DNA of 38,519 nucleotides from assembly GCA_003284215.1 (NCBI GenBank), contig QBVW01000006.1, forward strand, positions 1 to 38,519. Direction: 5' to 3'. Shown here one piece after another: positions 10,622 through 25,254 of this stretch (position 1 is its first letter; each line of letters begins with the position of its first letter). The notes beneath the pieces are model-generated. The model saw only the letters and a list, made by a program, of their open reading frames with translations, was not told the origin of the DNA and did no database searches. The translations under genes and the position numbers were made by a program. The stretch comes from SAR86 cluster bacterium AG-313-D11. Its GTDB lineage: Bacteria > Pseudomonadota > Gammaproteobacteria > Magnimaribacterales > D2472.

Positions 10622-12295
10622 ATGAAAACAGATATAGAAATAGCCAGAGAGGCAGATATTAGACCGATTGAAGCAATTGCTTCAAAGATTGGCGTTGATG
10701 AGAAATATCTAGAGAAATATGGAAAGTTTAAGGCTAAGGTTAATCTTTCGTTAATAAAAGAAAATCTCAAAGATCGTAAGAGTGGCAAATTAATTTTAGT
10801 CACTGCAATATCCCCAACACCAGCCGGTGAGGGCAAGACTACAACGAGTGTTGGCTTGGTAGATGGGCTTTGCCATATTGGAAAAAAAGCTATGATTTGT
10901 CTAAGAGAGCCAAGCTTGGGTCCATGTTTTGGTATGAAGGGAGGTGCTGCTGGAGGTGGCCTAGCTCAAGTAATACCTATGACCGATATTAATCTTCATT
11001 TTACAGGTGATTTCCATGCCATTGGAGCGGCACACAATCTTCTTTCTGCTCTTATAGACAACCACATACATTGGGATAATCAGTTGGATATAGATCCTCG
11101 ACGAATAACTTGGAAGCGGGTGGTTGATATGAATGATAGGTCGCTCAGGGATATTACATGCGGTCTTGGTGGAACAACCAATGGTATACCTAGACAAAGT
11201 GGCTTTGATATAACTGTTGCCTCTGAGATTATGGCTGTGTTTTGTCTTGCTTCAGATCTTGATGACTTGAAAAAAAGAATTGGTAATATAGTTATAGGTT
11301 ATACGAGATCAAATGAGCCAGTTAGAGCAAAGCAACTAAAAGCTGATGGAGCTATAACTGCATTGTTGCAGGATGCATTTCAACCTAACTTAGTGCAAAC
11401 CCTTGAAAATAATCCTGCATTCGTTCACGGCGGGCCATTTGCGAATATTGCCCATGGTTGTAACTCTGTAATTGCAACTAAAACAGCTCTAAAACTTGCA
11501 GATTATGTAGTAACTGAAGCTGGTTTTGGAGCAGACCTTGGTGCTGAAAAATTTTTTGATATTAAATGTAGAAAATCAGGTTTAAAACCAGATGCCGTTG
11601 TATTGGTTGCCACAACTAAAGCATTAAAAATGCATGGCGGCATTAAGAAAGATGATCTGGGTGCAGAGAATGTAGATGCTGTAACCAAGGGCTGTAAAAA
11701 TCTTGCAAAGCATGTCGAAAATATACAAAAATTCGGTGTTCCTGTCGTAATTGCTATCAATGATTTTGTTACTGATACAGAAAAAGAACATGCAGCAATC
11801 ATTGATTTTTGTAATAGTATTAGTATTGAGTGCAGAATTTCTTCTCATTGGGAAAAAGGTGGCGCAGGGGCAGCAGGCCTTGCCGAAGAGGTTGTAAAGA
11901 TTGCAGATGCTAATTTAGCTAAATTTAAGACATTGTATGAAGACAAACTTCCACTATGGGAAAAAACTAAATATGTCGCTCAAACCATTTATGGAGCTGC
12001 TGACATTATTGCAGATAAAAAAGTTAGGAATCAATTTCAAAAACTAGAGGATGATGGATTTGGCGATTACCCAATATGTATGGCAAAGACTCAATACAGC
12101 TTTTCCACAGATCCATTGCTCATGGGCGCTCCTACTGGGCATGATGTGCCTATAAGGGAAGTGCGCCTTTCTGCAGGAGCAGAATTCATTGTGGTCGTTT
12201 GTGGTGAGGTTATGACAATGCCTGGATTACCCAGAATACCTGCTGCAGAAAATATTGATGTTGACGATGACGGATTAATTCAAGGTTTGTTTTAG
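10622..12295 (+). CDS. fhs: Formate--tetrahydrofolate ligase
   Basis: The protein is 557 residues, full length for the family. The ATP-binding loop TPAGEGKTT sits near residue 66, followed by [20 protein letters not shown] and [25 protein letters not shown], all diagnostic of Fhs. It interconverts formate + THF + ATP and 10-formyl-THF. In organisms that strip methyl groups onto THF it is thought to run in reverse to release formate and make ATP. It heads a +strand set with NAD formate dehydrogenase (26 bases on) and glutathione-dependent formaldehyde dehydrogenase, which supports an oxidative C1 role here. No strong ribosome site is next to the ATG; an AAGGA lies about 18 bases upstream. Confidence 0.97.
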
Positions 12296-12321: not shown

Positions 12322-13518
12322 ATGAAAATATTATGCGTCTTATACGATGATCCAAAAGATGGAATGCCTACGAGCTATCCAAAAAAGGAATTGCCGAAAC
12401 TGGAAAAATATCCTGATGGCATGACATTGCCCAGTCCAAAAGGAAGAGATTTCAACCCTGGCGAGCTATTGGGTTGTGTCTCTGGCGAACTTGGTTTGCG
12501 AAAGTTTTTAGAAGACAGAGGGCACACCTTGGTTGTAACCTCTGATAAGGATGCTGATGGATGTACTGCAGATAAAGAATTAGTTGATGCAGATATTGTT
12601 ATTTCTCAGCCTTTCTGGCCTTACTACCTCACAAGAAAAAGAATGGAAAGTGCGCCTAATTTAAAGATGGCAATTACTGCTGGTATAGGCTCTGATCATG
12701 TCGATTTGCAGGCTGCGATGGATCATAAAGTTGATGTTGTTGAGGTAACTTATTGTAATTCCCGTTCAGTTGCAGAGCATATTGTTATGATGATTCTTGC
12801 TTTGGTTAGGGATTATCATAATCAGCACAGGATTGTGAATGAGGGTGGTTGGCATATCGCTGATGCAGTTCAAAGATCTTATGATGTTGAAGGTATGCAT
12901 ATCGGTACAATTGCTGCTGGCCGCATCGGTTATGACATGCTGCGAAAAATGCATCCATTTGATGTACATTTACATTATTTTGATAAACATAGATTAAGCT
13001 CAGACCAAGAGGCAGAATTGAACTTAACTTACCATGACTCCGTTGAATCTTTGGTTGCAGCTTGCGACGTTATTAATATAAGTTGCCCACTTCATCCAGA
13101 AACAGAGCATTTGTTTAATGATGATTTGATTGGTAAATGTAAACCTGGCGCCTATATCATTAATACGGCTAGAGGAAAAATTTGTGATAGAGATGCTATT
13201 GTCAGGGCCTTAGAGTCAGGACAATTAAGTGGATATGCAGGAGACGTTTGGTTTCCTCAACCAGCGCCAAATGATCATGTTTGGAGAACGATGCCTCATC
13301 ACGGTATGACTCCTCATACTTCAGGCACCTCATTATCCGCTCAAACAAGATATGCTGATGGAGTAAGAGAAATATTGGAGTGTTTCTTTGATGGAGAAGA
13401 AATCAGGAATCAGTATTTAATTGTTCAGGATGGCGATCTTGCTGGAATGGGAGCTCACTCTTATACCAAAGGGACAGCAACCGGGGGTTCTGAAGAGGCA
13501 GCTAAATTTAAGAAGTAG
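12322..13518 (+). CDS. fdh: NAD-dependent formate dehydrogenase (metal-free type)
   Basis: The protein is 398 residues and very close in pattern to the single-subunit methylotroph enzymes of the D-2-hydroxyacid dehydrogenase family: KILCVLYDDP at the start, VSGELGLRKFLE, ISQPFWPYYLT, GIGSDHVDLQ, TYCNSRSVAEH, the nucleotide-binding GTIAAGRIG, NTARGKICDRDA, GYAGDVWFPQPAP and TPHTSGTSLSAQ with the catalytic His. It oxidises formate to CO2, giving NADH. AGGAG lies 10 bases before the ATG. It follows fhs closely, so formate from THF or from formaldehyde detoxification would end here. Such cofactor-free FDHs are typical of methylotrophs and of bacteria living on methylated compounds. Confidence 0.96.
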   Translation: MKILCVLYDDPKDGMPTSYPKKELPKLEKYPDGMTLPSPKGRDFNPGELLGCVSGELGLRKFLEDRGHTLVVTSDKDADGCTADKELVDADIVISQPFWPYYLTRKRMESAPNLKMAITAGIGSDHVDLQAAMDHKVDVVEVTYCNSRSVAEHIVMMILALVRDYHNQHRIVNEGGWHIADAVQRSYDVEGMHIGTIAAGRIGYDMLRKMHPFDVHLHYFDKHRLSSDQEAELNLTYHDSVESLVAACDVINISCPLHPETEHLFNDDLIGKCKPGAYIINTARGKICDRDAIVRALESGQLSGYAGDVWFPQPAPNDHVWRTMPHHGMTPHTSGTSLSAQTRYADGVREILECFFDGEEIRNQYLIVQDGDLAGMGAHSYTKGTATGGSEEAAKFKK

Positions 13519-13555: not shown

Positions 13556-14665
13556 TTGATTAAAACTAGAGCAGCAGTTGCTTTTGAAGCTGGTAAGCCT
13601 TTAGAGATTATTGAAGTAGATCTTGAGGGACCTAAAGCTGGCGAAGTTTTGGTTGAGATGAAAGCAACTGGTGTATGTCATACAGATGCTTTCACTCTTT
13701 CGGGAGAGGATCCTGAGGGGGCTTTCCCTGCAATCTTAGGTCATGAGGGCGCAGGTATTGTTGTCGAGGTTGGAAAAGGCGTAAAAAGTGTAAAACCTGG
13801 AGATCATGTGATACCTCTCTACACAGCTGAATGTGGCGAATGTGAATTTTGCCTTCATCCAAAAACTAATTTGTGTCAGGCGGTTAGAGAAACTCAAGGC
13901 AAAGGTATTATGCCAGACGGCACAAGCAGATTTTCACTTGATGGCAAGCCTATTCTTCACTATATGGGATGCTCAACTTTCTCTAATTACTCTGTCCTCC
14001 CTGAAATTTCTTTAGCAAAAGTTAGAAAGGATGCGCCATTCGATAAGATTTGTTATATCGGTTGTGGAGTAACTACAGGAATAGGGGCTGTAGCTTTTAC
14101 TATGGGGGTTGAGGCTGGATCCACGGTTGCAATATTTGGATTGGGAGGAATAGGCCTCAATGTTATTCAAGGCGCAAAGATGGTTGGTGCATCAAGAATA
14201 ATCGGGATAGACTTGAATGATTCTCGGGCTTCAATCGCGACCAAATTTGGCATGACTGATTTTATTAATCCTAATAATATCGAAAATGTAGTTGATCATA
14301 TTATTGAGATGACTGGTGGAGGGGTAGATTATAGTTTTGAATGCATCGGCAACGTTGATGTGATGCGCCAAGCGCTTGAGTGCTGTCATAAAGGCTGGGG
14401 AGAAAGTTGTATTATTGGAGTGGCAGGCGCTGGTCAAGAGATCTCGACAAGACCATTTCAACTTGTTACAGGTCGATCATGGAGAGGAACAGCATTTGGA
14501 GGAGCAAGCGGACGAACAGATGTACCAAGAATAGTTGATTGGTATATGGATGGAAAGATTAATATTGATGATCTAATTACTCATAAGATGCCTCTTGAGG
14601 ATATCAACAAAGCCTTTGATCTTATGCATCAAGGAAAAAGCATTCGTTCTGTCATTGAGTTTTAA
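13556..14665 (+). CDS. frmA: S-(hydroxymethyl)glutathione dehydrogenase / class III ADH
   Basis: The protein is 369 residues, the usual length. The catalytic zinc site is Cys41 (GVCHTD) and His63 (LGHEGAG) plus a later Cys; the structural zinc site is [15 protein letters not shown]. The Rossmann motif GLGGIGLN is present, as is [16 protein letters not shown]. It oxidises S-hydroxymethylglutathione, the spontaneous formaldehyde adduct, with NAD. The start is TTG at 13556, giving the family-typical [15 protein letters not shown], with AGAGG six bases upstream; there is no in-frame ATG at that point. The next enzyme, S-formylglutathione hydrolase, is not adjacent. Its position after fhs-fdh marks this as a formaldehyde/formate oxidation operon. 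Confidence 0.95.
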
Positions 14666-14708: not shown

Positions 14709-15266
14709 TTAAACGAATGATCTTGGGTCTCTAGAAAAAATCTTTTCAATCATTGGAATAAAATGCTTTAAAGGTTGTGTTTTGTATTTCGGGTCAAATG
14801 ATTTTTGATCCCAATTAGCACAGAAATCGATACAATCTTGATAGTAGGGGTGGTCTTTATATTGTTCTCTTAAATTCCTATTTTTGTCGTAATGATGCAT
14901 CCAATAATATCCTTGGAATAAACCATGGTTTAGAACTATCCAATAATTTTTTTCATTAATGTATGGTCTTAAGAGTGCCGCAGAGACTTGTGAGTGGTTA
15001 GATGGAGAAATTACATCACCAATGTCATGAAGAAGAGCGCATACAATTGTTTCCATATCTGCTCCATCTTTTTCTGCTCTTGTGGCAGTTTGCAGTGAAT
15101 GCTGTAGCCTGCTAATTTGATATGGAGAATCTCCATCCATCATTTGAAGCCATTGAATAACTCGTTGTGATAAGTTTCTTTCATTTTTTGAGTCATGTAT
15201 CGCTACTAAATCATAGTCATCTTTCGTGCCCTGATCCATTGATCTAAATCCAACTTTTTTTACCAA
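14709..15266 (-). CDS. HD-domain protein, TmpB/PhnZ-like mixed-valent diiron oxygenase candidate
   Basis: The protein is 185 residues. HD metal ligands are readable in order: His56 (RLQHSLQT), His80-Asp81 (LLHDIGD), His91, His114 (LNHGLF) and Asp153 (NWDQKSFDP). Such proteins were long called phosphohydrolases, but PhnZ and TmpB of this fold are diiron oxygenases that cleave the C-P bond of 1-hydroxy-2-aminoethylphosphonates. The gene follows the BBOX-like oxygenase with the arrangement TGA-G-TTG, the start being TTG at 15266 with AAGAGG eight bases upstream; an ATG ten codons in is the alternative. That tight coupling to a 2OG oxygenase is the TmpA-TmpB arrangement. At the position of the PhnZ lid Glu (seven before the first His) it has Tyr49. 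Reaction inferred, not shown. Confidence 0.7.
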   Translation of the reverse strand: MVKKVGFRSMDQGTKDDYDLVAIHDSKNERNLSQRVIQWLQMMDGDSPYQISRLQHSLQTATRAEKDGADMETIVCALLHDIGDVISPSNHSQVSAALLRPYINEKNYWIVLNHGLFQGYYWMHHYDKNRNLREQYKDHPYYQDCIDFCANWDQKSFDPKYKTQPLKHFIPMIEKIFSRDPRSFV

Positions 15267-15267
15267 C

Positions 15268-16353
15268 TCAATTGCCTCTTAAATTTTTATAAAGAAATAA
15301 ATTATTTTCTATGTTATCAAGTTCATAATAAGCATCCTGAAGATGACGCTTTCCATCGGGTTTGAATTCTTTCCTCCCATGAAGCACTCGATGGGATGAT
15401 ACCAAGAGTATATTGCCTGCATCTAGTCTGAATATTGATTTGTATTTTTTATCATTCACTCTCTTACACAGCTCATGGTAAGCTTTATAAAATAAATCTA
15501 TGTTTTGCTTACGTGGGTCTATCATTTGCATTAATTGGTTGGAATACCTAAATCCAATTACCTCATTTAAAGAATTCAATCTAATGATTGGTTCATTTGC
15601 ATAAGTTTCATTTTCTTCATCAAACTCCCTAAAAGGAACGGTAAAGGTTCTTAAAACATCAAAAAAATTAGGGCAATCTTCCCTTAGATCACTCAGGACC
15701 TTATATCCATCCACTATCATTGATTCCCCGCCACTGCATTCATTTTCAAGCATGTGAAGAGCTTGCACGCTTGGTGGCCAAGAATAACTAGCAAAATCAT
15801 TGTGAGGAGGAACCTCTAATGAGGTATGCGCAATATTGTATACATGACCATCGACAGAGACATTATGAATTCGCTCAAACAATACCTCTCTTATTGGACC
15901 TAGTTTTGGGGTAAGTTTTTCTAATGAGTTAGGGATGCATGGCGAGTTTTTAATGCATATTGCACCTGTTGAAATAAAGTCAGAGAAGGCTTCAATAGCA
16001 ACATCATTATTTTGAAGCAGCTCAGACCAATCGTAATAGTTTGGAATAAAAGTATCAGCCCATAATATTTTTTTTGGTTTCCTGGGCTGAGTTAAAAATT
16101 CAATATCTTTAAAATTTATACTTGTTTCATGGTCATCAGGCCAAAAAATATTAATAGCATTTTCATTTACATTAACAATCTTCGGTTTTAAATCTACTGG
16201 TATGGAACTAAGCATAAAACGTTTCTCTTGAGTTTCCCTAACCCTGCAATTATTACAGGGGCAGTTGTCCCTCAGCCATAAAAATGGGAGTTCATATTCT
16301 AATTTTTTATTTTTTATAATTTTTAGCGAGCTTTCGCTAATTTGAACATCCAT
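15268..16353 (-). CDS. Gamma-butyrobetaine hydroxylase/TmpA-like Fe(II)/2OG oxygenase
   Basis: The protein is 361 residues. The N-terminal zinc domain has Cys31, Cys33, Cys36 (DNCPCNNC) and His75. The double-stranded beta-helix domain follows, with iron ligands His184 and Asp186 (PPHND) and His325 (RVLHGR) and the 2OG-binding Arg336. This is the layout of gamma-butyrobetaine hydroxylase and of TmpA, which hydroxylates 2-(trimethylammonio)ethylphosphonate. Of the BBOX residues that cage the trimethylammonium, the equivalent of Tyr366 is kept (Tyr342), but the Tyr194 position (eight before the first iron His) is His176. The HD-domain partner starts one base after its stop. Carnitine synthesis is the alternative, but no other carnitine gene is present. 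Class certain, substrate open. Confidence 0.8.
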   Translation of the reverse strand: MDVQISESSLKIIKNKKLEYELPFLWLRDNCPCNNCRVRETQEKRFMLSSIPVDLKPKIVNVNENAINIFWPDDHETSINFKDIEFLTQPRKPKKILWADTFIPNYYDWSELLQNNDVAIEAFSDFISTGAICIKNSPCIPNSLEKLTPKLGPIREVLFERIHNVSVDGHVYNIAHTSLEVPPHNDFASYSWPPSVQALHMLENECSGGESMIVDGYKVLSDLREDCPNFFDVLRTFTVPFREFDEENETYANEPIIRLNSLNEVIGFRYSNQLMQMIDPRKQNIDLFYKAYHELCKRVNDKKYKSIFRLDAGNILLVSSHRVLHGRKEFKPDGKRHLQDAYYELDNIENNLFLYKNLRGN

Positions 16354-17002: not shown

Positions 17003-17851
17003 ATTAACACTCATTTAAAAGATTTCATTTCAGGTTTTTCCATTGAAGTCTTACCTAGAACAGCATCGAAGATTGAATCTTTTGCGGATATCTTGCCCAA
17101 GCATACAAGAGTCTATATTGCTCATATTGAGGGAGAAGATATTGCATCAATGGTTGCAACTGCTAAAAGACTCAGCGATGAGGGTTTTACTGTCATGCCC
17201 CATTTCCCAGCAAGGATAATCCAAGATCAAGGTACGCTTCAAGATTGGATTTCCATGTATCAAAATGAAGCAGGGGTTAATGAGGCGCTTTTATTAGCTG
17301 GAGGCACAACGAAGCAAGTTGGAGAATATCATTCTTCGATGCAATTAATTGAATCAGGTTTATTTGATAAATCAGGCTTCAAGAGATTGCATGTAGCTGG
17401 GCATCCTGAGGGTAACAAAGATATCGATCCTGATGGTGGCAATAAGAATGTCTCTGAGGCACTTTCATGGAAGCAGAAATTTTCAAACAGAACAGATGCC
17501 TCTATGGCGATAACTACGCAATTTTGTTTTGATGCTGATGTTGTAAAAAAATGGGCTGATGCCATAAAAGATAGTGGTGTTGATATTCCTATACATATTG
17601 GTATTGCTGGACCGGCAAAGCTACAAACATTACTTAAGTTTTCAATTGAGTGCGGCGTGGGTGCTTCAATGAAAATTCTTACCAAAAGAGCAAAAGATTT
17701 AACCAAGCTTTTGCTGCCTTACAAACCAACACAAATTCTAGAAGATTTAGCTTCTTTTAAAGCAAAAAGTCCAAGCTTAAATATTGAGCAAGTCCATTTT
17801 TTTCCATTAGGTGGTATTAAGCAAACAGCTGATTGGGCAAGGGAAGAGTAG
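17003..17851 (+). CDS. Methylenetetrahydrofolate reductase-like protein, ATT start
   Basis: About 282 residues, in the short MTHFR-like family rather than canonical MetF. Conserved stretches are FSIEVLPRTASKIESFADIL, TRVYIAHIEGED, VMPHFPARII, LLLAGG, VAGHPEGN, TQFCFDAD and GIAGPAKLQTLLKF. The first good initiator in frame is TTG at 17093, but that would delete the conserved SIEVxPR start. The frame is open back to a TGA at 16991, and the only initiator-like codon with a ribosome site (GAGG, seven bases upstream) is ATT at 17003. I therefore place the start there. In this island the enzyme probably oxidises 5-methyl-THF from the adjacent DmdA-like methyltransferase to methylene-THF. Family call strong, start moderate, direction inferred. 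Confidence 0.8.
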   Translation: MNTHLKDFISGFSIEVLPRTASKIESFADILPKHTRVYIAHIEGEDIASMVATAKRLSDEGFTVMPHFPARIIQDQGTLQDWISMYQNEAGVNEALLLAGGTTKQVGEYHSSMQLIESGLFDKSGFKRLHVAGHPEGNKDIDPDGGNKNVSEALSWKQKFSNRTDASMAITTQFCFDADVVKKWADAIKDSGVDIPIHIGIAGPAKLQTLLKFSIECGVGASMKILTKRAKDLTKLLLPYKPTQILEDLASFKAKSPSLNIEQVHFFPLGGIKQTADWAREE

Positions 17852-17934: not shown

Positions 17935-19065
17935 ATGTACAAGTCATCAAAGATAACTTTTAGTCCTCGCGTAAGAAAGTCTCCGTACTTTAATTCCACC
18001 ATGAAATATGGAGCGCAAGCTTTTTCAGTTTATAACCATATGTATATGCCAGTCAGTTATGCTGGGCCTGTTGAGGATTATAAAAAATTACTAACCGGCG
18101 TTCAGCTTTGGGATGTTAGTGTCGAGCGACAAGTCCAAATTAAAGGTCCTGATGCAGAAGCTCTGGCACAGTTTTTAACTCCCAGAAATATAAAAAAATG
18201 TTTAATAGGTCAGGCAATGTACACTCCTCTTACAGACTTTCAAGGGGGCTTAATAAGTGATCCTGTTATGTTGCGGATTGCTGAAGATTGTTATTGGTTT
18301 TCTATTTCTGATGGAGACATACTCTTCTGGGTTCAAGCAATAGCAGCAGGATATAAATTTGATGTGCATGTGGATGAGCCAGATGTCTCTCCACTTCAAA
18401 CACAGGGACCTAATTCAACAAAATTGATGGCTAAGGTTTTTGGAGATTGGGTGCATGATTTAGCTTTCTATCGATTTAAGGAAATAACTCATGCAGGCAT
18501 TCCAATGGTCATAGCAAGAATGGGTTATAGCAAAGAACTTTGTTATGAAATTTTTCTTCAAGATCACTCCAAGGGCGATGAGTTGTGGGAAATGCTTTGG
18601 GAAGCAGGACAAGATATGAACATCAGTCCAGGCGGACCAAATATGATACTAAGATTAGAGGGCGGAATAGTGAGCTATTTATCTGATGTAGATAGAACTA
18701 ATAATCCGTATGAGGTTGGTTTTGAAGCTTTGGTTGATCTTGATCAGGAAGAAGACTTTATTGGCAAAGATGCTTTACGTGAAATTTATTCCAAAGGCCC
18801 ACAAAAGAAACTGATCGGTGCCGAAATTTTAGGTGATCCCATTACTGAAACCAATGCTGAGCACTGGCCTGTTTTTGTTGATGGCAAACAAATTGGATCG
18901 ATGAATGCTTTAGTTTTTTCACCAAGACTTAATAAGAACATTTGTTATGTAATTTTAGACATTAAACATGCCATCTGTGGTAATGAGGTAATAATCTCTT
19001 CGCCTGATCAAGATCGTCAAGCGATACTAGTTGACTTGCCTTGGTTAGAAAGAGTTAAAAAATGA
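17935..19065 (+). CDS. DmdA-like THF-dependent methyltransferase (GcvT family)
   Basis: The protein is 376 residues, close to the 369 of SAR11 DMSP demethylase. It shares with DmdA the run WDVSVERQVQIKGPDA, ISDPVMLRIAED, WFSISDGDILFW, EPDVSPLQTQGPNS, and PGGPNMILRLEGGIVSY with NNPYEVGF. Those features separate it from glycine-cleavage T proteins, and no GcvH or GcvP is nearby. DmdA moves a methyl from dimethylsulfoniopropionate to THF. The neighbour upstream is an MTHFR-like enzyme able to take the methyl-THF. DmdB-D are not in the window, while betaine-type genes surround it, so the donor may be DMSP or a quaternary amine such as glycine betaine. Subfamily firm, substrate open. Confidence 0.8.
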   Translation: MYKSSKITFSPRVRKSPYFNSTMKYGAQAFSVYNHMYMPVSYAGPVEDYKKLLTGVQLWDVSVERQVQIKGPDAEALAQFLTPRNIKKCLIGQAMYTPLTDFQGGLISDPVMLRIAEDCYWFSISDGDILFWVQAIAAGYKFDVHVDEPDVSPLQTQGPNSTKLMAKVFGDWVHDLAFYRFKEITHAGIPMVIARMGYSKELCYEIFLQDHSKGDELWEMLWEAGQDMNISPGGPNMILRLEGGIVSYLSDVDRTNNPYEVGFEALVDLDQEEDFIGKDALREIYSKGPQKKLIGAEILGDPITETNAEHWPVFVDGKQIGSMNALVFSPRLNKNICYVILDIKHAICGNEVIISSPDQDRQAILVDLPWLERVKK

Positions 19066-19101: not shown

Positions 19102-20406
19102 TTAATCTGCGTAATCCAAACCTTTGTCTTTTTGAACTTCGCGCTTGTTTGGGTTCACAGACTCCCTAAATGGTATGTCAACAATCTCACCCTCTACAGC
19201 TACTCCAGGAGATTCAGAGTATTCATCAGGAAGCCTTACTTGTAGTTTGGTTCCTATGTCTGATGATGTCCAGGGAACCCAACCGAGTGCTACGTTAGTC
19301 TCTAATTCTGGAGACCACCACGGCGAAGTTATATAACCCATATCATTGCCATCTGTATCAGCGATCAACCAAAAATCAGGAGCATAGTCTGTGATTTCTT
19401 TTCCGCCAAAAATCATCCCTACCATGCGCATTTTAAAAGGAAATTCACCAGCATCAATAACAGCTCTCTGTCTTTCCAATTCTTCTTTACCAATATAATC
19501 AGCTTCCTTATTGCGTGGTACCTGATAACTTAGATTGACCTGGAAGGGAGAGGTTTCATGATCTAGATCTTGACCCCAAGATAAAATACCAGCTTGAATT
19601 CGGCGATGATGCGCAGGAGCAATCACCATTAATCCAAATTCTTCACCTGCCTCTAAAACTGCATTCCAGACAATTTCGGCATTCTCGTGAGCATCTCGAA
19701 CATAAATTTCATAGCCTTTTTCGCCAGTAAACCCAGTTTGACTGATCACTACATCTGCCCCATTAATTGTTGTTTCCATTAAACCGTAATAGGGTATTTC
19801 TCTAAGTTCTTCTCCAGCTAGTTTTGCCATCAGATCTTCAGATAGAGGGCCTTGAATTTGCAAAGGGCAGACATCAATCTCATCAATCAAGACATCATAT
19901 TTTTTAGATACATTCACACCCTGAAGCCACAGCAAGAGATCGCTATCAGAAATAGAGAACCAAAACTCATCTTCTGCTATTCGCAATAACACAGGATCGT
20001 TTAAGACACCGCCTTTTTCGTTGCATAAAATAGCGTACTTACCATTTCCAGGTTCAATTTTTGTTGCATCACGAGTTATAACAAAATTTGTGAAGGCTTC
20101 TGCATCAGGACCTTTAACGCATATCTGTCTTTCAACAGCAACATTCCACATAGTGACCCGGTTAATTAATGCCTCGTATTCAACCATGGCACCACCATCC
20201 TCAGGCCTAACGTATCCTCTAGGATGATAGATTCGGTTATAAACTGTTGCTCTCCAGCAACCAGCCTCGTGAGATAAATGCCAAAATGGAGATTTTCTTA
20301 CTCTAGTTGATATTAATAATTCAGTAGGCGTTCGACCACTTTGCCTTAAATTATATGGAACCACACGATCACTTTGATCCACGCTTGGATGATTTGGATT
20401 TTTCAT
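19102..20406 (-). CDS. Second DmdA-like aminomethyltransferase (GcvT family)
   Basis: The protein is 434 residues. The core matches the DmdA-type folate domain: TMWNVAVERQICVKGPDA, GGVLNDPVLLRIAED, FWFSISDSDLLLWLQG, DVCPLQIQGPLSEDLM and TGFTGEKGYEIYV. It is longer than its neighbour at both ends; the N-terminal 30 residues contain TPTELLISTRVRKSPF, an arrangement echoed at the start of the other paralogue (FSPRVRKSPY). A strong AGGGGGG ribosome site precedes the ATG. It begins 45 bases after the FAD-GcvT fusion gene on the same strand, so the two are likely expressed together. It probably transfers a methyl or methylene group from an N- or S-methyl donor to THF. Not a glycine-cleavage T protein by context. 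Confidence 0.78.
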   Translation of the reverse strand: MKNPNHPSVDQSDRVVPYNLRQSGRTPTELLISTRVRKSPFWHLSHEAGCWRATVYNRIYHPRGYVRPEDGGAMVEYEALINRVTMWNVAVERQICVKGPDAEAFTNFVITRDATKIEPGNGKYAILCNEKGGVLNDPVLLRIAEDEFWFSISDSDLLLWLQGVNVSKKYDVLIDEIDVCPLQIQGPLSEDLMAKLAGEELREIPYYGLMETTINGADVVISQTGFTGEKGYEIYVRDAHENAEIVWNAVLEAGEEFGLMVIAPAHHRRIQAGILSWGQDLDHETSPFQVNLSYQVPRNKEADYIGKEELERQRAVIDAGEFPFKMRMVGMIFGGKEITDYAPDFWLIADTDGNDMGYITSPWWSPELETNVALGWVPWTSSDIGTKLQVRLPDEYSESPGVAVEGEIVDIPFRESVNPNKREVQKDKGLDYAD

Positions 20407-20451: not shown

Positions 20452-23049
20452 TTAAGCACGCACTCTCTCATTTTTTGGATCATACAAAGATCCTTTGCCA
20501 GCTATTTGAACGGTCATTGGGTATACTCCATCACCATTTTCATTGAAGTACTCCAGTAAAAGTGATTTGCCTGGCACAGCAAGATTTTTTGGCAGATAAC
20601 CCATTACTACAAATTTTTTAATTGAGGGGCAGTAGGACATCCCAGTTGCGTAAGATCTTCGACCTTTACTATCAATTGGCACTTCGCCAGATGCAGGATC
20701 AATGATTGGAGAGTTTCCTACTGGATAACGCATAGTGCCTGATACATTGAGATCATCGACTGTCATCGTACATAAAATTGCACAGGGTTCTTCTTCTCTG
20801 TGAGCTAAATGCGCTTCTTTACCATGAAAATCTGCCTCTTTAACTAAGCGTCTTTCGATAGCAGATTCGCAAGCATTGTATTCAGTTTCAAGGTCTGCTC
20901 CCTGCAGTCTAAAGCTTTTTTCAAGACGTCGGCTATTTGCATAAGTTTCAATACCAACTGGAACGACTCCAACCTCCAGTAATGAATCGTAGAGTGCAAG
21001 ACCATCTTCGCTATCATTATTTAGATAAATTTCCCAGCCACTTTCTCCAACGTAGGAAATGCGTGATGCCCATACATTAATTTTTTTTCCTTCAGATAAA
21101 TTTAGTGTAAGGTTTTTCGCAGCTGCAAAAGGGAAGTTTTCTATTGTAATTTCATTTGGATCAATAAAGTGGCCTAAAGCATTTTTTGCTTGAGGTCCCC
21201 ATAGTCCTAGCGTAGCTATGTCATGAGTACGAATTTTAATATCAGCATCCAATCCATTGTCATCACGATGGTTGCGTAAAGTTACCCAGTCTCGATTTCC
21301 ATCTGCACCACCAGTAACTACGCGATAATGATCTTTACCTAAACGAGAAATAGTTAGATCTGCATGTACTCCACCATCTTCATCTAGAAAATTGGTATAA
21401 ATCATTCTACCTTCAGGAGTCTCACCACCAACTTTTGCCACAGACAAATATTCAAGCATTCGCTCAGCATCTTTGCCTTTAATATCCATAATAGGAAAGT
21501 GAGATAGATTGATCATGCCAACAGAATCACTCATGGCAAGATGTTCTGCATTAGCAATTTGATATGGCACATGTCTTTGATCCCATTCGTTTTCCCTGAC
21601 AGGAATTTCTTTGAAATAATTTTCTAGCTTTTGCTGATTAGTCTCATAAGCTAAGGCTCTTTCCCAACCAGCCACCTCATTATCAAAGAATCCACCAAGC
21701 TCTTTTTCTCTTTCATAAAAGGGACTTACATATAACTCTCTATGACTAATATATGGTTCCCTGGGATGAACAGCAGGAGTGTAGATGGTTTGAGCATTTT
21801 CATATGATCTTGTTTTTACGAAAGCCTTTTCTTTTTGTGCAGGGTAGAATCTTGCAATATCAAAAGAGTGCATATCCACCTGCGTTTTACCATAAATCAT
21901 TGATTCAGCAAGTAATCTTGCACATCCAGGACCATCTTTTACCCAAACTGCTTCACATAACCAAAAGCCTCTTACCTCAGGACTTTCTCCAATTAAAGAT
22001 CCAGCATCAGGTGTCACAGAGAGCAAACCATTAAATGAACTTTTTTCATCCCAACCTAGCTCATTGAGAATGGGCGTAGTTTCAAATGCCTTTTCAAGAG
22101 GCTCTGCAACCTCTTCAAGATCAAGATATCTCATTGAATCAGAGATCATCGTTTTTTCTGGGTTCCCAATATCCTCAGGTTCAACTAATCTCGGATCTTT
22201 GTCTTCGTAATATCCCCACTCAAGCATGCCTCCATGCAATCTGCCAGTATCTCTCACATACGCCGAGTTACCTTGATCACGAAGCAGGGGATACACAAGG
22301 AGTTCTTCTGTCCCTTGAATTTCTGGGAGAGGGCCAAAAAATAATAAAGGATGTTCAACAGGCATTAAAGGAACTGGAACCCCAGCTTTTTTACCCATCA
22401 AAGGCCCCCATATTCCAGATGTTATGACAACTTTATTAGTTTTAATTGTACCCTTATCAGTCTTTACTCCAGTAATGCGACCATTTTCAATATCAAAATC
22501 TATAGCTGGTGTGTCAGTAAATGTGGATAAAGCACCTTTTTCTTTAGCAGTTTCTACTGCAAAGTTAACAACATCTTGTGAGCGTGGAGTAACTAGACCA
22601 GCATCTGGGTCCCACATTGCTCCTCGAATCGATTCTTCATCCAGAAGAGGAAATTTTTCTTTAGCTTCCGAAGCGGAAATTAATCTTATGTTAGTTCCAA
22701 AAGCTTTCCCTGATTCAACTTTACGCTTAAGTTCTTCCCAGCGCGCATCATCATCTTTACGACAGATTTCCAAGCCACCTTTTTTTAAAAAAAAGCCATT
22801 TTCTTCATAAAACTGTCTACTGAAATTAGTTGCCCAGCAGCCAAGTTTGTCGTGAGTTGTGTTGTATACAAAATCTGAAGCGTGAGCAGTAGAAGCAATG
22901 TCTGAAGGGATAATAGTAGATTTTTCTAAGCCTACAATATTCTTTTGTCCTAGCTCTGCAAGCCAATATGCAACCATAGAGCCTACAATACCTCCAACAC
23001 CAACAATAACTACTTCTGCTTCTGAAGGAAATTTAGAGGATTGTGCCAT
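20452..23049 (-). CDS. Dimethylglycine/sarcosine dehydrogenase-like FAD-GcvT fusion
   Basis: The protein is 865 residues with three parts: an N-terminal DAO-type FAD domain (about 10-375, with VVIVGVGGIVGS), a short FAO_M-like linker (about 378-435), and a folate-binding GcvT domain with C-terminal barrel (about 440-855). His56 in STAHASDF aligns with the His that carries covalent FAD in dimethylglycine and sarcosine dehydrogenases (WHAAGL). Such enzymes oxidise an N-methyl group and pass the carbon to THF as methylene-THF, or release formaldehyde. The surrounding formaldehyde and formate genes are the expected downstream steps. Dimethylglycine versus sarcosine cannot be decided by eye. Promoter and palindrome lie upstream. 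Confidence 0.88.
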   Translation of the reverse strand: MAQSSKFPSEAEVVIVGVGGIVGSMVAYWLAELGQKNIVGLEKSTIIPSDIASTAHASDFVYNTTHDKLGCWATNFSRQFYEENGFFLKKGGLEICRKDDDARWEELKRKVESGKAFGTNIRLISASEAKEKFPLLDEESIRGAMWDPDAGLVTPRSQDVVNFAVETAKEKGALSTFTDTPAIDFDIENGRITGVKTDKGTIKTNKVVITSGIWGPLMGKKAGVPVPLMPVEHPLLFFGPLPEIQGTEELLVYPLLRDQGNSAYVRDTGRLHGGMLEWGYYEDKDPRLVEPEDIGNPEKTMISDSMRYLDLEEVAEPLEKAFETTPILNELGWDEKSSFNGLLSVTPDAGSLIGESPEVRGFWLCEAVWVKDGPGCARLLAESMIYGKTQVDMHSFDIARFYPAQKEKAFVKTRSYENAQTIYTPAVHPREPYISHRELYVSPFYEREKELGGFFDNEVAGWERALAYETNQQKLENYFKEIPVRENEWDQRHVPYQIANAEHLAMSDSVGMINLSHFPIMDIKGKDAERMLEYLSVAKVGGETPEGRMIYTNFLDEDGGVHADLTISRLGKDHYRVVTGGADGNRDWVTLRNHRDDNGLDADIKIRTHDIATLGLWGPQAKNALGHFIDPNEITIENFPFAAAKNLTLNLSEGKKINVWASRISYVGESGWEIYLNNDSEDGLALYDSLLEVGVVPVGIETYANSRRLEKSFRLQGADLETEYNACESAIERRLVKEADFHGKEAHLAHREEEPCAILCTMTVDDLNVSGTMRYPVGNSPIIDPASGEVPIDSKGRRSYATGMSYCPSIKKFVVMGYLPKNLAVPGKSLLLEYFNENGDGVYPMTVQIAGKGSLYDPKNERVRA

Positions 23050-23769: not shown

Positions 23770-25254
23770 CTATTGATTAAGATTTTTTAATAGACTTTTT
23801 GCAGCAAAAGAAACCAAGATTGCAAATGGCACTCCAGTTACTATGACTGAAGTTTGCAGTGCTCCAATTCCACCTCCAGCTAAAAGAACAATTGCGATTA
23901 CTCCAAGAGATATTGCCCAGATAACTCTCAAGATCATTGGGGGCTCTTCTTTTGTATTCTCTTTCTTTGATGCAGTCAACATCGAGGTGACCAAGGCTCC
24001 GGAATCAGAGGAAGTTACAAAAAAAGTTAGAATGATGGTTATTGCAAGACCCATCAATAACTTTGAAAAAGGGAACTGCTCTAAAAAGACAAATAGCGAG
24101 ACAGCAATATCATTATTAATGGCCGTACTCAATGAATTTGGCTCTATAAATTCTTGGTACAAAGCGGCATTGCCAAAAACACCCATCCATAAAAATACTA
24201 TTGATGAGGGAACCAATACAGTGCCTATTAGAAATTCTTGGATTGATCTGCCATACGATATTCTTGCAATAAACAATCCCACAAATGGAGACCATGCAAA
24301 CCACCAAGAATAATAATAAAGAGTCCAACCGTTTTGCCAAGAAGAATCTAAATACCCTTGAGTGTTGGTGGATAGACTTAATAAATTTTGAAGATAAGAG
24401 CCTAAATTTTGAACCAGACCATCTAATATATAGCTTGTAGGACCCCCAAAAAAAACTATTGCAAGCAAAATGGTGCATAAAATTATATTAAGTTGAGACA
24501 ATATCTTGATCCCAACTTTTAAACCCAGAACAACACTTGCTAGGCCCATTAAAGTTATCACAACAACAATTCCTATGGTGCTCATAAAGCTTTCTTCTAG
24601 AATTTCCATGTAACCAAGACCGGAGTTTATTTGATTTGCTCCCAACCCCAAGGAAGTGGCAATACCAAATATTGTTGCAATAATTGCAATTACATCTAAT
24701 GAAACTCTGCCCCAAATATTTTTGGTAAATCTGCCGGAAAAAAAAGAGCTAACTCTGAATGGTAACTTTTTATTATAAGTAAAGTAGGCAAAGCAAAGCC
24801 CAACCACTCCATAAATTGCCCAACCATGAAAACCCCAGTGAAGGTATGAAAGATTCATTGCAAGATTTGCTTTATCTGAAAAAGAGGCTCCAGCCTCATG
24901 AATTGAATTTGAACTAAAGTGAAGAACAGGTTCCGCAACTCCATAGAATAGTAAACCAACTCCTAAGCCAGCACTAAAGAGCATAGCTATCCAATTTATA
25001 TTTGAAAATTCTGGTGTTGCATCTTGGCCACCTAGAATAATATTTTTATGTTTACTAAAGGCAAGATATATAACAAATACTAAAAAACCATTTGCAAGCA
25101 AAATTATCAGCCATCCAAGCCCATCAGAAAGTTGTTGCTGGATTTGAGCAAATAACTTATCCGCTTCATTCAAGTTAACCAGCGTTATCCAGATAAATGC
25201 AGAGATTAGAATTATCGAGAAAACGAACCGCCTAGGAGCTATATTTTTAAACAT
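23770..25254 (-). CDS. BCCT-family betaine/carnitine/choline transporter
   Basis: The protein is 494 residues with about 12 membrane spans. Family signatures are clear: GVGLLFYGVAEPVLHF, WGFHGWAIYG, GLGANQINSGL, and the aromatic box WTLYYYSWWFAWSPFVG followed by LFIARISYGRS; the core substrate-binding Trp/Tyr residues of that box are kept. BCCT carriers import quaternary ammonium or sulfonium compounds such as glycine betaine, choline, carnitine or DMSP with sodium or protons. The long regulatory C-terminal tail of osmotic carriers like BetP is absent, since the protein stops soon after the last span. That favours catabolic uptake feeding the demethylation genes next door. The exact substrate cannot be read. 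Confidence 0.93.
   Translation of the reverse strand: MFKNIAPRRFVFSIILISAFIWITLVNLNEADKLFAQIQQQLSDGLGWLIILLANGFLVFVIYLAFSKHKNIILGGQDATPEFSNINWIAMLFSAGLGVGLLFYGVAEPVLHFSSNSIHEAGASFSDKANLAMNLSYLHWGFHGWAIYGVVGLCFAYFTYNKKLPFRVSSFFSGRFTKNIWGRVSLDVIAIIATIFGIATSLGLGANQINSGLGYMEILEESFMSTIGIVVVITLMGLASVVLGLKVGIKILSQLNIILCTILLAIVFFGGPTSYILDGLVQNLGSYLQNLLSLSTNTQGYLDSSWQNGWTLYYYSWWFAWSPFVGLFIARISYGRSIQEFLIGTVLVPSSIVFLWMGVFGNAALYQEFIEPNSLSTAINNDIAVSLFVFLEQFPFSKLLMGLAITIILTFFVTSSDSGALVTSMLTASKKENTKEEPPMILRVIWAISLGVIAIVLLAGGGIGALQTSVIVTGVPFAILVSFAAKSLLKNLNQ

Follow-up and report, generated by a model that had tools for sequence, protein, structure and literature searches.

A coupled BBOX-fold hydroxylase and HD-domain protein in a methyl-group island of a SAR86 bacterium resemble, but are not, the phosphonate enzymes TmpA and TmpB

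The 38,519-nt contig QBVW01000006.1 of SAR86 cluster bacterium AG-313-D11 (assembly GCA_003284215.1), here called the window, carries on its minus strand a gene for a BBOX-fold Fe(II)- and 2-oxoglutarate-dependent (Fe/2OG) hydroxylase followed by a gene for an HD-domain protein, with a single base (15267) between them (Table 1). Pfam assigns TauD (6.4e-31) and GBBH-like_N (3.1e-12) to the former and HD (1.2e-7) to the latter. An initial annotation had described a BBOX-like oxygenase with intact metal sites and, one base downstream, an HD protein with a full ligand set, and all of these residues were confirmed: zinc ligands C31, C33, C36, and H75 and iron ligands H184, D186, and H325 in the hydroxylase, and H56, H80-D81, H91, H114, and D153 in the HD protein. 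The window genome (1.30 Mb, 22 contigs, 75% complete) has its nearest named relatives among SAR86 records, with HD protein identities of 79–91% in records titled SAR86. Both genes are under purifying selection, as the ratio of nonsynonymous to synonymous substitution rates against close homologues is 0.04–0.10 for the HD gene (five comparisons) and 0.08–0.12 for the hydroxylase gene (four comparisons), and these low values in both genes indicate that the pair is more than a chance arrangement. We propose, at roughly even odds (a probability of about 0.5), that the pair is a two-step oxidative cleavage module with an N-methylated glycine as product, in which the bond cut is more likely C–C than C–P. 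The pair resembles the TmpA/TmpB phosphonate pair but clearly is not that pair, and its substrate is probably not a phosphonate.

The metal-ligand set of the HD protein is that of the HD oxygenases. The set H..HD..H..H..D is invariant in 85/85 family rows, some of which share genomes, and a profile alignment (98.8% probability) places all six ligands on those of TmpB-type proteins. The AlphaFold2 model (predicted local distance difference test [pLDDT], 93.8) matches PhnZ (1.9e-6), TmpB (2.6e-5), and MIOX (6.3e-2), and these HD oxygenases occupy ranks 1–11, above every hydrolase among the structure matches listed. With this fold and ligand set, the protein is presumed to be a diiron oxygenase. 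Most known HD proteins are phosphohydrolases, according to passages of PMC8177086, and the present family often occurs alone, so an ordinary phosphohydrolase that neighbors the hydroxylase by chance has to be considered; it is quite unlikely, given the oxygenase ligand set, the far lower placing of hydrolases among the fold matches, and the coupling of the family to several kinds of Fe/2OG hydroxylase described below.

By its sequence, the HD protein belongs to a family separate from TmpB, PhnZ, and MIOX. It reaches 38.7 bits on the TmpB model NF049941 (cut-off 300), 49.4 bits on the Phn-HD model TIGR03276 (cut-off 214.6), and 34.6 bits on the hydroxymethylphosphonate enzyme model (cut-off 300), and five further family members (L055, L048, L105, L124, and L144; L numbers denote loci and G numbers genomes) score about equally low on the phosphonate-type HD models. 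In a tree of 126 rows, a 100/100 branch splits six TmpB-type rows from 120 rows of the new family; the bootstrap of this tree had not fully converged, and 17 named loci were removed beforehand because they were duplicates or later loci, identical proteins, over-long frames, or low scorers apart from the six chosen TmpB-type rows. Aligned by profile with TmpB-type proteins, the new family has lost or altered the YxxE loop, the lysine of HVxAKRYL, the LSxAS...LQGG segment, and the arginine preceding the final aspartate. All of these except the YxxE loop we take to be phosphonate contacts of PhnZ (K108, S126, Q129, and R158). The YxxE loop is a hallmark of TmpB and PhnZ, with its role set out in passages of PMC8177086; its site reads D46-S-P-Y49 in the window protein, and the Y49 position is Y or F in 85/85 rows. 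The family has invariant marks of its own (NH, HGxFQxYY, and DQxSFDP, in 20 rows). It was matched in 59/398 Pseudomonadota genomes (E ≤ 1e-10), and TmpB exceeded its cut-off in 1/274 genomes of the window's class, 25 of which had any match at E ≤ 0.001; as the phylum and class samples differ, this is a rough comparison. No description of the HD family or of the hydroxylase/HD pair was found in the full-text literature searched, beyond which most subscription papers lay.

A second HD-family paralogue, 36% identical, is present in genome G000 (G000:C2:19764-20285; L178:5753-6289, minus strand), and its counterparts occur in many SAR86 relatives. The same stretch encodes two further proteins that fall below their cut-offs, one a Rieske protein resembling GbcA (128 of the 670 bits required) and the other choline-dehydrogenase-like (578 of 605 bits).

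The hydroxylase likewise stands apart from the characterized enzymes. Human BBOX is the closest structure to its predicted model (pLDDT 87.5; 4.9e-32), followed by TmpA and then DfmD, and the hydroxylase reaches 209.8 bits on the TmpA model NF049936 (cut-off 400), 216.8 bits on the BBOX model TIGR02409 (cut-off 414.75), and 152.5 bits on the trimethyllysine dioxygenase model (cut-off 268.3). A tree of 52 rows, built after setting aside 12 duplicate loci and fragments (<300 aa), contains, among other groups, a clade A (19 rows: the window, SAR86, Woeseiaceae L048, and L105), a clade B (14 rows: SAR11 partners and L124), and a TmpA clade (seven rows: the solved TmpA, three proteins encoded next to TmpB-type genes, and SAR11 L073, L076, and L081). 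After removal of three long rows (49 rows), approximately unbiased (AU) tests rejected a joint clade of A and TmpA (p-AU 0.0038) and of A and B (p-AU 0.023), p-values that are optimistic because the clades were named after the first tree. Clade B and TmpA together form one side of a 99/95 branch in the 49-row tree (91/87 with 52 rows), and mean identities are 26% between A and B, 23% between A and TmpA, and 31% between B and TmpA. Judged from these trees, the window hydroxylase lies outside the TmpA clade.

The SAR11 member of the TmpA clade at L073:2225-3370 scores 543 bits on the TmpA model. It is lined up on one strand with genes for aldehyde dehydrogenase, hydroxyacid-dehydrogenase-like, transporter, GcvT-like, and FAD + GcvT proteins, an arrangement that is similar in L081 and partly so in L076, and rows of this type run divergent from a solo HD gene of the new family.

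Pocket residues follow the clades. Beyond the metal ligands, the window hydroxylase has F159, H163, N173, H176, N272, Q273, R336, and Y342. The aromatic cage that binds the cation in human BBOX, which we take to be Y177/W181/Y194/Y366, is replaced by F/H/H/Y in 19/19 clade-A rows. The enzyme shares with BBOX, its closest solved structure, the fold, the zinc site, the iron site, and the two anion-binding asparagines (N173 and N272), and differs in two histidine cage positions (those of W181 and Y194), in a score about half the BBOX cut-off, and in its pairing with an HD gene. Carnitine biosynthesis was rejected on that score and those histidines, and a gamma-butyrobetaine hydroxylase that makes carnitine beside an unrelated HD protein is very improbable. 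TmpA binds the phosphonate through N187, N287, and R288, as given in passages of PMC9296572. Of these three positions the window hydroxylase keeps both asparagines and has Q273 in place of R288, a pattern shared by 19/19 clade-A rows, and the clade-A pocket also occurs in three clade-A proteins without an adjoining HD gene. Clade B shows the opposite: the aromatic cage residues are kept, the first asparagine is an aspartate in 14/14 rows, and the R288 position is arginine or lysine.

The genomic context gives little sign of phosphonate use. As the initial annotation had noted, no phosphonate gene lies nearby (none among 13 window proteins scanned). A PhnD-type phosphonate-binding protein exceeded its cut-off in 0/60 genomes, the window's 75% complete genome included, in a search that covered PhnD and no other phn gene; one of the 60 had a match below the cut-off, and 10/14 control genomes exceeded it. 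A TmpB-like HD gene (145–159 bits, none above 300) coexists with the new-family HD gene in 10/18 SAR11 genomes searched, out of 36 (5 of 12 paired and 5 of 6 solo-HD genomes), and was absent from all 10 gammaproteobacterial genomes of the same search. As the two kinds of HD protein coexist in SAR11, they are probably not interchangeable. One such gene, in SAR11 L064:5434-5976 (plus strand), lies about 1 kb from a new-family pair and scores 172 bits on the Phn-HD model (cut-off 215); its product, the sole one read, has the YxxE and LQGG features.

A divergent TmpA/TmpB, which would convert 2-(trimethylammonio)ethylphosphonate or its dimethyl analogue into betaine and phosphate, has in its favor the identical enzyme classes in identical order, PhnZ and TmpB as nearest solved HD structures, and, in SAR11, the 99/95 placement of clade B with TmpA a clade-B member (L055) with 324 of the required 400 bits on the TmpA model, and a TmpA gene some 5 kb away from an HD gene of the new family. 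It is nonetheless rather improbable in view of the p-AU for clade A, the glutamine at the R288 position, H163 and H176 at cage positions, the absent YxxE, lysine, and LQGG features, the PhnD result, and the coexisting TmpB-like proteins. The claim of a TmpA/TmpB-like pair made in the initial annotation held for a coupled hydroxylase and probable HD oxygenase, and membership in TmpA/TmpB was rejected by the scores, both trees, and the missing HD positions. In the phylogenetic comparison that it had proposed, both proteins formed groups of their own and did not join carnitine-pathway or hydrolytic relatives, and the non-phosphonate substrate that it had called equally worth testing now looks like the better bet. 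The failed membership does not weaken the claim of TmpA/TmpB-like chemistry. As in Leisingera caerulea TmpA/TmpB, a BBOX-fold Fe/2OG hydroxylase is coupled to a following HD protein with oxygenase ligands, and the product may also be an N-methylated glycine.

Hydroxylase and HD genes are paired well beyond the window. The hydroxylase gene lies directly upstream in 27/53 HD-bearing genome loci: 14/14 SAR86-like (11 titled SAR86), 1/3 Woeseiaceae, and 12/36 SAR11. From hydroxylase stop to HD start, the SAR86, SAR11, and Woeseiaceae pairs range from a 13-nt overlap to a 5-nt gap (L105 was measured after trimming an over-long frame). Among the window's own genome and 59 relatives, a close HD homologue (≥75% identity) occurs in 8/60, with the hydroxylase matched in 8/8; three genomes have the hydroxylase without a close HD homologue and 49 have neither (Fisher p 6e-8, kinship ignored). 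More distant family members are common, with some match in 44/60 genomes. SAR86 pairs are found in several unrelated neighborhoods (the methyl island, hemA-prfA-prmC...SelO, and beside a cystathionine-synthase gene), and HD clades track hydroxylase clades, with SAR86, Woeseiaceae, and L105 going with A and SAR11 and L124 with B. In G010, the hydroxylase (L179:5228-5806, minus strand) is a C-terminal half only (query residues 195–358) without the HxD iron motif, and the HD gene is intact and adjoins a betaine-aldehyde-dehydrogenase-like gene.

Partners of this one HD family come from BBOX clade A, BBOX clade B, and PhyH. In two distant genomes, the gene just before the HD gene encodes a PhyH-family Fe/2OG protein (L097:211-1926, 27-nt gap; L144:1456-3086, 1-nt overlap as called), and pairing on the HD tree is not a single event, as starred branches force at least six changes. 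Repeated coupling to differing hydroxylases fits the prediction for an enzyme that requires a hydroxylated substrate. No dominant partner emerged in the wider family, where 80 of 88 listed neighbors were scanned and fell into 75 families, with counts taken from the top 25 (histidine-kinase ATPase, 5; TauD, 2; PhyH, 2; OpuAC, 2; class II aldolase, 2), and most other members examined have no hydroxylase neighbor. Six plasmid neighborhoods comprised two without listed genes, two without a hydroxylase, and two that are suggestive only: in Phaeobacter inhibens (L148:6004-7650), an HD-family gene whose annotation reads "inositol oxygenase family protein" is followed after 21 nt by a fatty-acid-hydroxylase-type gene, and in Tistrella a TauD gene lies about 5 kb from the HD-family gene. 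The cultivated Ruegeria sp. TM1040 also has an HD homologue (TM1040_RS01335).

The idea that all solo-HD SAR11 genomes hide an unlinked clade-B hydroxylase was dropped, as a strong match (52–55% identity) was found in only 5/24 SAR11 genomes searched; 15 had weaker best matches of 33–38%, at least some of them TmpA-like, and four had none. Two Woeseiaceae genomes gave no match in this search.

The pair sits within a methyl-group island, which had been proposed at the outset and is real: one-carbon (C1) dehydrogenase and ligase genes, all three over curated cut-offs, lie on one side, and DmdA-like, dimethylglycine-oxidase-like, and BCCT genes on the other (Table 1).

Table 1. The hydroxylase/HD pair and surrounding genes in the window
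Feature	Position	Strand	Details
Formate-tetrahydrofolate ligase	10622..12295	+	919.5 bits, cut-off 652
NAD-dependent formate dehydrogenase	12322..13518	+	654.3 bits, cut-off 329
S-(hydroxymethyl)glutathione dehydrogenase (glutathione-dependent formaldehyde dehydrogenase)	13556..14665	+	652.3 bits, cut-off 543.95
HD-domain protein gene	14709..15266	-	185 aa, TTG start
BBOX-fold Fe/2OG hydroxylase gene	15268..16353	-	361 aa, ATG start
MetF-like protein	17003..17851	+	PF02219 21.5 bits, below cut-off 24
Dimethylsulfoniopropionate (DMSP)-demethylase-like GcvT-fold protein	17935..19065	+	DmdA 391.3 bits, cut-off 410; 3tfh 1.6e-83
Second DmdA/GcvT-like protein	19102..20406	-	DmdA 267.7 bits, cut-off 410
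Dimethylglycine oxidase/dehydrogenase-like FAD + GcvT protein	20452..23049	-	1pj5 4.4e-100
BCCT-family transporter, best match betaine-type	23770..25254	-	NF047988 487.7 bits (cut-off 650); TIGR00842 433.4 (cut-off 407.55)

Formaldehyde and formate dehydrogenase genes adjoining the pair might suggest oxidative N- or S-demethylation, in which the hydroxylase would hydroxylate a methyl group and the formaldehyde released would pass to the neighboring enzymes, with the HD protein acting separately. There are precedents for formaldehyde release in DfmD and in BBOX with an inhibitor (passages of PMC9296572), and in G057 the hydroxylase lies in such an island without an adjoining HD gene. Against this explanation, which we consider unlikely though not far-fetched, stand the close linkage to the HD gene in SAR86 and Woeseiaceae, the 8/8 co-occurrence, and the ties between the HD family and other hydroxylases.

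Genes near the HD gene in other genomes point to the product. In L048, L049, L050, L096, and L105, the HD gene has a dimethylglycine-dehydrogenase-like gene no more than 180 nt downstream in the same orientation; the FAD + GcvT architecture was confirmed in the L048 protein, and the L096 and L105 sequences, which cover the FAD part only, are 83–84% identical to the full gene. Woeseiaceae L048 has SoxB and SoxA further downstream, with MttB-like and formate-tetrahydrofolate ligase genes on the opposite side. Of 36 SAR11 loci, 21 have a BHMT-cluster gene no more than 900 nt from the HD gene, and 9 have an FAD + GcvT gene in the available stretch. The one BHMT-cluster member checked matched solved BHMT (1e-47) far better than methionine-synthase-type enzymes (1e-14). 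BHMT and dimethylglycine dehydrogenase make up the betaine route proposed for SAR11 in passages of PMC3160333 and PMC12478193. As genes for betaine or dimethylglycine demethylation often neighbor the HD gene in marine loci, an N-methylated glycine is the likely product.

The observations are the pairing of the two genes, their neighbors, the predicted fold, the ligands, the clades to which the proteins belong, and the missing phosphonate-enzyme positions, and from them we infer the diiron oxygenase activity, the order of steps, the product, and the substrate. The hydroxylase would use Fe(II), 2-oxoglutarate, and O2 to add a hydroxyl group to a small methylated zwitterion, and the HD protein, as a diiron oxygenase, would use O2 to cut the bond beside the hydroxylated carbon and leave a carboxylic acid. 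The reaction would be R-CH(OH)-X + O2 -> R-COOH + X-OH, in a form whose balance for C–C cleavage we assume. PhnZ and MIOX carry out this class of cleavage at a hydroxylated carbon, according to passages of PMC8177086. R would be dimethyl- or trimethyl-ammoniomethyl, giving dimethylglycine or glycine betaine, and X would be carboxylate or CH2-carboxylate (C–C cleavage) rather than phosphonate. The acid formed would be dimethylglycine in SAR86 and Woeseiaceae and glycine betaine in SAR11, from which demethylases would then strip methyl groups for C1 energy. A dimethyl substrate in SAR86 is a guess prompted by the two pocket histidines and the dimethylglycine-dehydrogenase neighbors. A lack of BHMT-type genes in SAR86 was also considered as an argument for it and fails, as PF02574, which also covers MetH, is found in 41/60 genomes and matches twice in the window's genome.

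Several observations weigh against the cleavage module. TmpA has its sister group in clade B and not in clade A, and in SAR11 genome G714 some 5 kb separate the TmpA gene from the new-family HD gene, against some 19 kb from the TmpB-like one, so that the new HD protein could serve TmpA there. Some HD proteins are hydrolases. No BBOX-type hydroxylase neighbors the HD gene in 26/53 loci, just four Fe/2OG proteins were seen among the 80 scanned neighbors of the wider family, and G029, G033, and G057 carry a clade-A hydroxylase without an adjoining HD gene. Since solo HD genes are common, the HD protein must often work without the hydroxylase or on a naturally hydroxylated substrate. Within the available stretch, the dimethylglycine-dehydrogenase-like gene was present in only 4/14 SAR86-like loci.

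Compared with known systems, the proposed module would be a distinct one. A 2020 review counted three HD oxygenases (MIOX, PhnZ, and TmpB) in passages of PMC8177086, and those named later are PhnZ variants for other phosphonates, according to passages of PMC10574752. The window pair is unlike TmpA/TmpB in hydroxylase clade and pocket, in the YxxE, lysine, and LQGG positions, in scores far under the cut-offs, and in a genome where PhnD, the one phn gene searched for, does not exceed its cut-off. It shares the HD fold with PhnY/PhnZ, the 2-aminoethylphosphonate system that supplies its best structural match, and lacks the PhnZ hallmarks. MIOX has the same diiron ligand set, also lacks the YxxE loop (passages of PMC8177086), and shows that HD oxygenases can cut C–C bonds; its structural similarity is weak, and sequence searches against solved structures matched no MIOX. 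The SAR11 glycine betaine oxidation scheme (BHMT and dimethylglycine dehydrogenase; passages of PMC3160333) is alike in the kinds of neighboring genes in SAR11 loci and in the C1 logic of the window, and unlike in that HD and hydroxylase genes are not part of the scheme as presented there; "hydroxylase" and "phosphohydrolase" have no occurrence in the main text of PMC3160333.

More tentatively, and with rather more doubt than for the pair itself, a widespread HD oxygenase family may cut C–C bonds beside a fresh hydroxyl in methylated osmolytes, having been joined, apparently at least three times, to different Fe/2OG hydroxylases. In SAR11, SAR86, and Woeseiaceae, it could form an unrecognized oxidative route that supplies the demethylation of betaine and dimethylglycine. 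The SAR86 substrate, to judge from the two pocket histidines, would be a sulfonium compound or a protonated tertiary amine (dimethylamino) and not trimethylammonium. If so, ocean bacteria of the SAR11 and SAR86 groups would have an overlooked O2-dependent means of opening methylated dissolved organic matter, and surveys would be warned against counting HD genes of the new family as phosphonate degradation.

The start of the MetF-like gene in the island (Table 1) differs from the listed one. The frame was listed from a TTG at 17093 but is open upstream to an ATT at 17003 with GAGG 7 nt before it, and homologues in L034 and L036 have 293–294 aa vs 252 aa for the listed frame. Likely, the gene begins at this rare ATT start, given the upstream ATT with GAGG and the longer homologues.

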